Assembly: GCF_000403355.2 (NCBI RefSeq) | Contig: NZ_KE159646.1 | Coordinates: forward strand, 1,702,258-1,766,257 | DNA length: 64,000 nucleotides | Source: Adlercreutzia caecimuris B7 | GTDB taxonomy: Bacteria; Actinomycetota; Coriobacteriia; Coriobacteriales; Eggerthellaceae | Direction: 5' to 3' | Part shown: positions 8,173-50,593 of the stretch, piece after piece | Layout: the number at the start of each line of letters is the position of its first letter | Numbering within the stretch: the stretch's first letter is position 1 | Program-made: the position numbers and the translations under genes | The notes under the pieces: generated by a model | The model's database searches: none | Told to the model about the DNA's origin: nothing | The model's input: only the letters and a program-made list of their open reading frames with translations

Positions 8173-8227
8173 CCAAATCCTCCCAGTAACGTATTGCATT
8201 TCCATTTCATTCAGGAACCCACGAGGT

Positions 8228-8417
8228 GGTTTCCCGGTGGTCTGATCGCGGGCGTCTGAGCGCCCTCGGAGAATGCGGCCCTTAAGAAGCAGATTCCACT
8301 TCAGCATCAACGACTCCGGGATAGTACCGAAGCGCGTGCGTCATCTCCTCTGCTTCCTTGGCCGCATTCGCAGAGGGGCCCAAGCGAAGTCGGCCGCGAT
8401 CAGACTGCCGGGGAACC
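8228..8417 (+). repeat. Structured dispersed element, family A copy 1
   Basis: Fills most of the 320-bp gap between two minus-strand genes. Outer stem: 8228-8251 pairs with 8394-8417 over 24 bp, 21 Watson-Crick and three G-T. Inner stems: GAATGCGGCC 8271-8280 with GGCCGCATTC 8360-8369, and GAAGCAGA 8286-8293 with TCTGCTTC 8349-8356. The core includes GGGATAGTACCGA (8318-8330) and GTGCGTCAT (8336-8344), shared with copy 2 at 15761-15955. The complementary strand could encode a 20-residue peptide (8282-8344), but the start codon abuts the GAGGAG, so translation is doubtful. The remaining bases up to 8492 hold imperfect GGGAACCG repeats. Confidence 0.75.
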
Positions 8418-8492
8418 GCCCCAGCGGGTGCCGATCGCAGACATCGGGAACCGACCCAGCAGGAACCGCCCCCACGCGGCCCCCAGCAGCCG

Positions 8493-15705: not shown

Positions 15706-15955
15706 CCGTGGCCGACGACCTCTGCGCGCCCTGCACTCTGCTCAAAATGATATCGCGCAGGCGGCCCGCGGAACCCGTGCTCGCCGACCTCTGAGCGCCC
15801 TGCGAAGAACGCGGCTCAAAAGAAGCAGATTCCACGCCAGCAGCAGCGATGCGGGGATAGTACCGACTAGCGTGCGTCATCCCCTCTGCTTCTCTCGCCG
15901 CGTTCGCAGCAGGAGCAGCGCGAAGCGGGCGGCGAGCACGGGTTCCGCGGGCCGC
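15706..15955 (+). repeat. Structured dispersed element, family A copy 2, with partial duplicate
   Basis: Outer stem: 15761-15785 pairs with 15931-15955, 25 bp with no mismatch. Inner stems: GAACGCGGC 15807-15815 with GCCGCGTTC 15897-15905, and AGAAGCAGA 15821-15829 with TCTGCTTCT 15885-15893. The core GGGATAGTACCGA (15854-15866) and GTGCGTCAT (15872-15880) match copy 1. The outer arms share no sequence with those of copy 1. A partial duplicate of the left shoulder (CGACCTCTG-GCGCCCTGC) lies at 15712-15734, bounded by CTGCGCG/CGCGCAG (15722-15760). This fills the 361-bp gap between the polyferredoxin and napH genes; no gene is supported here. Confidence 0.78.
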
Positions 15956-15967
15956 TGCCCCAAGTTC

Positions 15968-16957
15968 CTAGTCCAGCTTCGGCTCCAAATCCTCCAAGGA
16001 GGGCTCCAGCACTTCCACCGCGCCCTTCTTCTTCGACGGCGCGAACACCGGCATGGTGATGGCCTTGGTGGGACAGGCGTCCACACAGGCACGGCAACGG
16101 GTACAGTCGGCCGTGGTGAGCTCGCCGAATTCGGGATGGCGCAGATTGATGTCGAACTGGCATACCTCGGCGCACTTGCTGCACGAGGCGCCCTTGGCGG
16201 TTTCCAAGCACTTCTCATCGTTGATAACCGGCACGAAGGTGCGCGAGAAGCGACCCACCAGGTTCATGAGGGCCGACAGCGGGCAGAAGTGCGTGCACCA
16301 CTTCCGCAAAAACACGAGCTCCACGATGAGCATGGCCGGAATGAGGATGATGCCGATGGTGGCATCGCCCGCCGAGAAGGCCCGCCACAGCACGAGCACC
16401 GTGGCGAAGGTAAGGCCCACGGGGCACACGAGGCAGAACACCGGGAAGCCGAACACGGCCGTGGACAGAAGCGCGCCGCCGAGCACCGCGTGGCGCGAGT
16501 CCAGCTTGCCATGCTTGACCGGCTGGCACTTCCCGCAGGCACCGCAGGCGTGGCCCTTGGCGTCCTTGGCATCCTTGGCCGGCTTCAGGCTGTCCAGCTC
16601 CTGCTGGGAAATGGCCTTGATCTCGGCGTTCTTCTGCTCGGCTAGGGCCTTGCGCTTCTTGGGCGAGCGGAAGTAGTCGCGAATGCGGTAGATGAGGGTG
16701 GTGGGGCACAGCCACGCGCAGAAGGCGCGGCCCACGAGCAGCACGAGAGCTGCCATGGCGACAAGCGAGATGACCGCCCGGGGAATCATGGTCTTCGTGG
16801 CGATCATGGTGCCGAGCGCGCCCAAGGGGCACAGCGCCGCGATGGTGTCCCAGCCGAAGCCGGACAGGGTGCCGGTGCTCACGCCGGCGATAAGGCCGCC
16901 GGCCATGACGGCAAATACAGCGGCGGCAATGATGGTGCGCAGGTTCTTGGTCTTCAT
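15968..16957 (-). CDS. napH: NapH-like membrane quinol dehydrogenase Fe-S protein
   Basis: A 329-residue membrane protein with four to five hydrophobic segments and cysteine motifs of the NapH family: FCAWLCPTT and WCTHFCPLS in the membrane part, and two C-terminal ferredoxin motifs (CSKCAEVCQ, CTRCRACVDACPT). NapH with NapG oxidises quinol and passes electrons towards a periplasmic reductase. An extra cytoplasmic CGACGKC motif lies between membrane pairs. The gene is 9 bp downstream of napG. Here the pair serves a DMSO-reductase-family enzyme rather than a NapA with a visible NapB. Confidence 0.88.
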   Translation of the reverse strand: MKTKNLRTIIAAAVFAVMAGGLIAGVSTGTLSGFGWDTIAALCPLGALGTMIATKTMIPRAVISLVAMAALVLLVGRAFCAWLCPTTLIYRIRDYFRSPKKRKALAEQKNAEIKAISQQELDSLKPAKDAKDAKGHACGACGKCQPVKHGKLDSRHAVLGGALLSTAVFGFPVFCLVCPVGLTFATVLVLWRAFSAGDATIGIILIPAMLIVELVFLRKWCTHFCPLSALMNLVGRFSRTFVPVINDEKCLETAKGASCSKCAEVCQFDINLRHPEFGELTTADCTRCRACVDACPTKAITMPVFAPSKKKGAVEVLEPSLEDLEPKLD

Positions 16958-17701: not shown

Positions 17702-17757
17702 AAATGGCTTCAAAATCAAGGTTGTGGTCGGGCGCAACCTTGATTTTCAAGCCATTT
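17702..17757 (-). repeat. 22-bp inverted repeat (family C motif) before napG
   Basis: AAATGGCTTCAAAATCAAGG and its near-complement (17702-17723 with 17736-17757) form a 22-bp stem with one mismatch and a 12-nt loop. The right arm, read on the minus strand, contains TGGCTTGAAAATCA, also found at 5841-5854. It could attenuate transcription between the catalytic genes and napGH or protect the upstream mRNA end. Confidence 0.72.
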
Positions 17758-23163: not shown

Positions 23164-23269
23164 CAACAAAACACCGGGAGCTGCCGGCGGAGCCTCGGGC
23201 GGCGCGCCCCCCAGGATGGATGGGAGGGATGGCCGCCGCGGCTGTCGGCAAGCTGCCGATGTTTTGTTG
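23164..23269 (-). promoter_or_regulatory. Long imperfect leader hairpin before large molybdoenzyme
   Basis: CAACAAAAC (23164-23172) pairs with GTTTTGTTG (23261-23269), and the pairing continues inward imperfectly through AGCTGCCGG/GCAAGCT-like segments for close to 30 positions. One interior mismatch is a G-U pair only in minus-strand RNA, the strand of the gene. The outer end lies 34 bp before the start codon. A possible promoter sits beyond it (TTGCGA near 23305-23310, TATCAT at 23285-23290 on the minus strand). Confidence 0.55.
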
Positions 23270-31140: not shown

Positions 31141-31199
31141 GAGGCAAGCCCCTGACGCCTCGGATGCGCCCCGAGCGCCCCGGGCGTTTTCCCGACGTC

Positions 31200-31284
31200 G
31201 AGAGCGTCTGGGGCACCTGGGGTGTCTGGGGCATCCAGGGCGTTTGGGCCACCTGTGGCACCCGGGGTGACCCTTCTGCGACGA
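31200..31284. repeat. Degenerate 9-bp tandem repeats
   Basis: Between 31212 and 31274 seven units follow the pattern GGGGCACCT, GGGGTGTCT, GGGGCATCC, AGGGCGTTT, GGGCCACCT, GTGGCACCC, GGGGTGACC. This lies in the 343-bp gap after the LuxR gene. Short GC-rich inverted repeats (CGACGTCG, GGCCGGGC-like) flank it. No gene is supported in the gap; the left part may contain the LuxR gene terminator. Confidence 0.5.
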
Positions 31285-31391
31285 ATCGCCTGCGGGGTTC
31301 CCTGACGCCATCGGCTCAGTCCCCCGACGTCGGGGAAACGCCCGGCCCAGCCCCCTCGGTCCCGCCAATGGGGCCGGGCCTATCGACGAAT

Positions 31392-32760: not shown

Positions 32761-32813
32761 CTCGATATGCATAGATTTGGCCATTATGAGGGGCCAAATC
32801 TATGCATATCGAG
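32761..32813. repeat. Perfect 22-bp inverted repeat right of the IS element
   Basis: Arms 32761-32782 and 32792-32813 are perfect complements with a 9-nt loop (ATTATGAGG). Each arm contains CCAAATCTATGCATATCG, also found once at 31392-31409. The whole stretch from the transposase start to 33197 is gene-free; 32820-33066 has weak open frames without a convincing start or family and may be debris of a gene lost around the insertion. Confidence 0.8.
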
Positions 32814-43082: not shown

Positions 43083-43144
43083 CCCTATATATCATCCCTT
43101 TTGTCTCCGGAATGCGCCCCAGGAAGTCAGCGAGGACCCCGGAG

Positions 43145-43260
43145 GCGACGGCCGGGCGGCGTGCCTCCACGCGCAGTTCCGCAGCGACTGGAAGTGCCCC
43201 GTGGGCACTTCCACCAAGCGAGGACTGTCTGAGCATGGAGGCATGTCGCCCGGCCGTCGC
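43145..43260 (+). repeat. Structured dispersed element, family B copy 1
   Basis: Outer stem: 43145-43169 with 43236-43260, 25 bp including two G-T pairs. The core starts with GCGCAGTTCCGCAGCGA (43171-43187), has an 11-bp hairpin TGGAAGTGCCC/GGGCACTTCCA (43189-43199 with 43203-43213) and ends with AGCGAGGACTGTCTGAGCA (43217-43235). It lies between the convergent TPR and glutamine synthetase genes. Copies 2 and 3 are at 50475-50593 and 50361-50426. Confidence 0.8.
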
Positions 43261-43277
43261 CGGACAGGCGGGCATTC

Positions 43278-50360: not shown

Positions 50361-50426
50361 CGCTCAGACAGTCCTCGCTTTGTGGAGCAGGACATTAAGT
50401 CCTGTTCCAGTCGCTGCGGAACTCGC
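50361..50426 (-). repeat. Structured dispersed element, family B copy 3 (core only, inverted)
   Basis: Read on the minus strand it has GAGTTCCGCAGCGACTGG, a hairpin of GGAACAGGAC with GTCCTGCTCC and then AGCGAGGACTGTCTGAGCG. The hairpin sequence differs from copies 1 and 2 but still pairs with a single mismatch. No outer stem is visible. It faces copy 2 across about 50 bp, forming an inverted pair inside the rha operon. Confidence 0.75.
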
Positions 50427-50474
50427 TCGGTCAGAGCACCGACCGCTTCCTCTACGCTCAACCGCAGTCGAGCA

Positions 50475-50593
50475 GGTCGCGGATGTGGGGCGAGGGTCCG
50501 CGCGCAGTTCCGCAGCGAACGGAAATGCCCTGTGGGCATTTCCGCCGAGCGAGGACTGTCTGAGCACGGCGCCCTTGCCCCGCAGCTGCGACC
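50475..50593 (+). repeat. Structured dispersed element, family B copy 2
   Basis: Core 50501-50566: GCGCAGTTCCGCAGCGA, an 11-bp hairpin CGGAAATGCCC/GGGCATTTCCG (50520-50530 with 50534-50544) and AGCGAGGACTGTCTGAGCA. Outer pairing GTGGGGCGAGGG (50485-50496) with CCCTTGCCCCGC (50572-50583), two of 12 pairs being G-T, and GGTCGC with GCGACC (50475-50480 with 50588-50593). It lies 11 bp after the rhaB stop. Confidence 0.78.

Follow-up and report, generated by a model that had tools for sequence, protein, structure and literature searches.

The window analyzed here, a stretch of 64,000 nucleotides from Adlercreutzia caecimuris B7 (contig NZ_KE159646.1, positions 1,702,258 to 1,766,257), contains two hairpins that have a core in common and are closed by long outer arms, paired within each copy and seemingly unrelated between copies. 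This locus raises the question of what kind of element can combine a conserved core with such arms, whether the arms belong to the element or to the DNA around it, and what keeps them paired. We conclude that these hairpins, designated family A, are copies of a non-coding palindromic DNA repeat of approximately 200 bp, which is located at gene ends and occurs throughout the genus Adlercreutzia.

Anatomy and folding of the window copies

Both copies were found where the original prediction had placed them, and each forms one long hairpin on the plus strand, at positions 15760-15956 (copy 2) and 8225-8420 (copy 1). Folding energies bore out these long hairpins, with -138.8 kcal/mol for the region 15750-15965 around copy 2 (z -9.7 versus shuffled controls) and -119.3 kcal/mol for the region 8218-8427 around copy 1 (z -7.6 versus shuffled controls). 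The left outer arm of copy 2 (15760..15785, plus strand, 26 nt) is preceded by an A at 15759, includes TGCTCGCCG, and forms 25 Watson-Crick pairs with the right outer arm (15931..15956, plus strand), which ends some 11 nt short of a stop codon, that of the minus-strand gene at 15968-16957. The core between the arms (15786..15930, plus strand, 145 nt) scored 160.1 bits with covariance model R1, and contains the apical sequence GGGATAGTACCGA followed by the conserved GTGCGTCAT (approximately 15855..15867, plus strand), which are near-invariant in the alignment. Copy 1 likewise consists of a left outer arm (8225..8250), a core (8251..8394, 145.6 bits with the covariance model), and a right outer arm that pairs with the left one (8395..8420), all on the plus strand. 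The arm sequence next to the core includes TGATCGCGG in copy 1, in the place of TGCTCGCCG in copy 2. The common core motifs were present in both copies, and the sequences confirm that a T-A pair of the middle stem has changed to C-G, as predicted, with the pairing kept. Neither window copy has, directly after the stem, the T-run that an intrinsic terminator would have.

Distribution of the repeat

A covariance model built from 23 copies identified seven family A copies in this genome (2.96 Mb) and 6-7 copies in each of two relatives of the same genus; a pattern search found five copies here and 22 more across six relatives. The covariance search suggested with the original prediction thus yielded further copies, and the stems do not drift without compensation. 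Matches were found in all nine Adlercreutzia genomes searched, and divergent copies were identified in two further genera of the bacterial family (genus g25, with 10 in G074 and one in G032, and the genus of G087, with two), while the covariance model found family A in none of the other 45 genera sampled. In a strict pattern scan of approximately 85,000 species genomes, matches occurred only in records labelled Adlercreutzia or Enterorhabdus; besides the window's genome, the carriers include the named Adlercreutzia species A. equolifaciens, A. muris, and A. mucosicola. No family A was found in the viral contigs, plasmids, and phages searched, and no lone half-elements bounding a larger autonomous element stood out among the inspected left-half matches. 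The window gave no Rfam match at curated thresholds, the weaker matches being generic microRNA hairpins, and no description of these repeats in Adlercreutzia or Eggerthella was found in the open-licence papers searched.

Covariation in the core and composition of the outer arms

In the alignment of 23 distinct core sequences, 98.6% of the core pairs were kept, compared with 87.4% in shuffles, and 16 of the 32 pairs showed two-sided changes. Sliding the pair partners by 1-3 columns abolished this covariation signal. The internal loops of the core are conserved in sequence (e.g., the 3x3 loop GNA/GNA that adjoins the middle stem), as is the apical GGGAYRGTACCGA, and the internal loops and mismatches are present in all copies. 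The one-sided departures in the core were equally divided between G.T (3) and A.C (3).

The pairing of the arms was surveyed beyond the edge of the model in 52 copies at 22 sites. The paired length had a median of 26 bp and ranged from 21 to 31 bp in 47 of the 52 copies, with a Watson-Crick share of 96%, and the whole hairpin including the arms measured 188-206 bp (median 199, 26 loci). An A precedes the left arm at 15 of these loci (p = 0.0002), and G is the first arm base at 20 of them. The outer stems had been described as having nothing in common. This description did not survive comparison across 19 independent sites, where the positional information of the arms reached 8.47 bits (relative entropy) against 2.92 +/- 0.47 in shuffles, with 5.3 in the inner 8 bp (0.97 in shuffles), 2.4 in the middle 8 bp, and no sequence signal in the outermost 8 bp. 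A weak common sequence is therefore kept in the inner 16 bp of the arm, and both window copies fit it: a leave-one-out profile from the other sites matches the copy at 15761 with p = 0.0005 and the copy at 8228 with p = 0.002. Additionally, the arms of the G074 paralogs visibly have GGGAGGGGCTGTTTC in common, and a GGGAGGGG-like sequence lies at a similar place in several Adlercreutzia arms. Because the inner sequence is common to sites and the total hairpin length is nearly fixed, the arms belong to the element, and the simplest reading is that they are old element sequence after drift.

Compensatory change and strand preference

Among alignable orthologous arm pairs, 46 two-sided changes stayed Watson-Crick, whereas 13.1 would be expected if the two sides changed independently. 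The 25 one-sided changes in these arms comprised 15 between G.T and Watson-Crick pairs, five between A.C and Watson-Crick pairs, and five others. Across all arms, G.T outnumbered A.C by 25 to 8 (p = 0.005); the figure per site (10 versus 3, p = 0.09) is the safer one, since orthologs are not independent. These results support the proposal that selection acts on the fold, both by the excess of compensated changes over expectation in the core and in orthologous arms and by the preponderance of G.T over A.C (25 versus 8) among one-sided departures on one strand, and pairing-preserving mutation may contribute beside such selection.

The plus-strand G.T preference points to folding of that single strand. 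It persisted where both flanking genes lie on the minus strand (about 10:1, seven of them from one site), so that co-transcription with a neighboring gene does not explain it. A second hairpin family of these genomes, family B, showed the same direction (roughly 20 versus 8 by our own count, with its conserved wobble set aside). We regard the preference as moderate evidence, because the two classes are equal in the core.

Individual loci also showed other kinds of arm change. At L054 (G007, C112:1257149), the left arm matches that of the G008 ortholog and the right arm has been replaced over approximately 17 nt, which breaks the pairing. The right flank of L082 (G000, C1 ~1104255-1104450) contains about three tandem repeats of this copy's right half with its right arm, and the repeated arms vary.

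Genomic sites and turnover

According to a simple codon-position gene finder, the flanking genes were convergent in 13 cases, co-directional in 13, and divergent in two, and the distance to the stop codon was usually 9-40 nt. The orientation of the element relative to the neighboring gene varied, and coordinates judged by eye gave no obvious pattern of replication-orientation bias. Vertical inheritance was found at several sites. G004, G003, and G001 also carry window copy 2, and there its arms differ by compensated changes. Window copy 1 was found in G001, G002, G003, and G005 but not in G004, G007, and G008.

The site L048 offers the best case of an apparent recent insertion. Four relatives (G008, G004, G005, and G003) have a short spacer without the element there, which reads GTGGGCCTAGG in G008, and neither arm was seen in this empty site. 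In G007, two copies of GCCTA, a 5-bp direct repeat, enclose the element along with some 40 additional bases to the left of it and GGACA to the right; no direct repeat was found at L029. L048 was the only clean insertion with an empty site supported by outgroups, several other empty sites being deletions or impossible to polarize. A coreless palindrome at one G005 site was considered as an empty target and rejected; it retains GATCGCAGACCTC from the border between arm and core and has CCTC microhomology at the junction, and is more likely a deletion.

Other spacers differ in what they hold. At L051, the flanks in G002 are 96-99% identical to those in G000, yet the family A copy is inverted and has different arms. 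The spacer that we take to be gyrB-gyrA, from our reading of the flanking sequence, contains family A in G005 and family B2 in G002 between identical borders (GTAAGAGTA ... GGACAAG), and neither of these hairpins in G000 and G004. At L078, family A is present in G000 and G006, family B1 in G001, G003, G007, and G008, and G005 is empty. At L035, G002 and G004 have the core in the opposite orientation to G000, with the arms still similar. These differences in occupancy, replacement, and inversion indicate turnover of the element at preferred spacers.

Other hairpin families and candidate enzymes

Family B is a second and commoner palindromic repeat, with about 50 places in the genome, including window positions 43144-43261 and 50362-50565. 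Its core is GTTCCGCAGCGA...GCGAGGACTGTCTGAGC, its arms are variable yet paired, as is its apical hairpin, and several copies form head-to-head pairs approximately 190 nt apart, resembling BIMEs. The family B copy L132 (G000, C1:463747) has a perfect arm and has lost a G.T wobble that is nearly universal in its family, whereas L245, its ortholog from G004, is imperfect; to judge from these two sequences, L132 looks like a candidate template-switch correction event. At least two more hairpin families, with cores of about CTCCGAACACC...GGTCGCC and GGCTCCGACAGGTGCCTG, are located at L115 (G006), L114/L116 (G007, G008), and L241/L246 (G004, G003), where the spacers of other species contain family A or B. 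In addition, the window contains strong inverted repeats at 31180-31345, 23164-23269, 32761-32813, and 17702-17757, which appear by eye to be unrelated to families A and B.

No Y1 transposase (PF01797) was found in G000, G004, G005, and G007, and no reverse transcriptase in G008 or G074, both of which are carriers. Neither a Y1 transposase/RAYT nor a reverse transcriptase was therefore found in all carriers as a common mobilizer. G074 has a RAYT-like Y1 transposase gene surrounded by a perfect 32-bp inverted repeat, ATGAGACAAAGGGACACTCCTAATGTCTCATT (L156, 948-1047 and ~1934-1965), with a further copy of the repeat at the same locus. This gene was rejected as a partner of family A, to which the flanking 32-bp repeat is unrelated.

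Explanations of the repeat

The anatomy, the covariation, the fixed length, the location at gene ends, and the presence, absence, and replacement between relatives are the observations that an explanation has to join. With moderate confidence, we favor a discrete palindromic repeat of about 200 bp, in which the fold of one strand is the functional form and the stem sequence drifts with compensation. Such an element would have three parts: the outer stem of 26 bp, a stem whose internal loops are conserved, and the apex, which is conserved in sequence. The outer stem would be recognized, or merely required, as a helix of fixed length, and its sequence could then drift with compensation until two copies appear unrelated. 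The element would sit just downstream of stop codons and be inherited vertically over long periods, with occasional loss, new insertion, reversal, or replacement by another hairpin family in the same spacer. Its mobility would act on the folded single strand, through an enzyme that is provided in trans or has since disappeared, and it might affect the 3' ends of host transcripts. Single-strand transposition by some enzyme may be involved. A more specific proposal, which we regard as quite unlikely, is a transposable single-strand hairpin recognized by shape, sequence-specific only in the apex and middle stem, whose outer helix would be constant in length and unconstrained in sequence. It would be moved from one gene end to another by an enzyme unrelated to the known Y1 or reverse transcriptase mobilizers, and the genus would host at least four hairpin families of this kind that compete for the same spacers.

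The pairing might instead be kept mainly by mutation, through a template switch of the replicating polymerase within the hairpin, by which the sequence of one arm is overwritten with the exact complement of its partner. This mechanism is established (PMC8794818, PMC7202029), and the few intermediates, the 96% Watson-Crick arms, the 46 double against 25 one-sided changes in orthologs, and the family B copy L132, perfect and without its family's G.T where the G004 ortholog is imperfect, all agree with it. Rampant correction would, however, erase the core loops and mismatches that are conserved in all copies, strand-symmetric correction does not predict an excess of G.T on one strand, and the fixed length and conserved core are left unexplained. 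As the main cause it is unlikely in our judgment; template-switch correction probably helps to keep the arms paired, and it is not the whole story, because the core mismatches persist. We also doubt that family A is a resident, immobile cis-acting RNA element under selection, such as a terminator, an RNase III site, or a protector of mRNA 3' ends. The neighborhood of stop codons, the avoidance of divergent promoters, the strong conservation of structure, and the vertical inheritance of several sites would fit such a role, but the orientation to the neighboring gene is not fixed, the G.T preference stays on the plus strand even between minus-strand genes (with the ratio and single-site weighting given above), the stems of the window copies are not followed by a T-run, and insertion, replacement between hairpin families, and inversion of the core have taken place at the same spacers.

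The original prediction had offered two origins for the arms that would draw on the target DNA: the element might have entered palindromes already present, or snap-back copying might have produced the second arm. Both are extremely unlikely. It is true that the outermost 8 bp pair without a sequence common to sites, and that one G005 site holds a coreless palindrome; that palindrome, however, reads as a deleted element, and we reject target-derived arms because the arm length is fixed, the inner sequence is common to sites, and the comparison of empty and occupied sites at L048 revealed an empty site without either arm. It is also very unlikely that family A is a REP proper, that is, a GTAG-tagged palindrome moved by RAYT (TnpA_REP). 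Some copies, such as L048, L032, L034, and L028, have GTAG or GCAG at the left foot, and the strand-specific fold and downstream location are REP-like, but the tag is not general, the consensus being just A|G, a family A copy is five times the size of a REP, G000, G004, G005, and G007 have no Y1 domain, and the only RAYT-like gene seen, that of G074, is bordered by the unrelated 32-bp repeat.

Comparison with known systems

Among described repeats, the kinds nearest to family A are YPAL/RU-2, ERIC, and NEMIS, together with REP/BIME. REP and BIME sequences occupy intergenic spacers downstream of genes, where the neighboring genes are convergent or co-directional (PMC3733652), and the REP/RAYT system uses a strand-specific folded form (PMC8266576). 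Family A resembles them in its location and its strand-specific fold, and some copies have GTAG at one foot, but it measures 188-206 bp compared with 20-40 bp for REP, and the carriers tested have no RAYT. Like ERIC, NEMIS/Correia, and other MITE-like repeats, it is a non-coding sequence in the range of 100-200 bp at gene borders that would form a long stem when transcribed. In most repeats of the ERIC/NEMIS type, the terminal inverted repeats are conserved in sequence and have TA ends (PMC2229807), whereas family A lacks terminal inverted repeats of conserved sequence.

The YPAL/RU-2 repeat of Yersinia is a non-coding palindrome of approximately 170 bp that is not A+T-rich and contains internal inverted repeats; its insertions are accompanied by direct repeats that vary and are frequently found where the DNA has dyad symmetry (PMC2229807). 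By description, family A is similar to it as an intergenic palindrome of similar size that is not A+T-rich and is missing from orthologous sites, and differs from it in the hypervariable outer stem of fixed length and the compensated drift.

Monttinen and Loytynoja (2022) described the compensatory evolution of RNA stems by template switching (PMC8794818), which the long perfect stems, double substitutions, and few intermediates of family A recall; this is an evolutionary mechanism and not a named element. Whether selection on the fold or pairing-preserving mutation shapes hairpins is a debated point in their evolution, and the near-perfect 26-bp stems of family A, available as orthologs and paralogs, provide data to separate the two. 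They also show that long paired arms, though seemingly unrelated, can be internal to a repeat and do not imply duplication of the target. In our reading, family A is a new, non-autonomous family within the broad kind of bacterial palindromic repeats, to be compared with REP, YPAL, and ERIC, and the trait that distinguishes it is the sequence-free outer stem.
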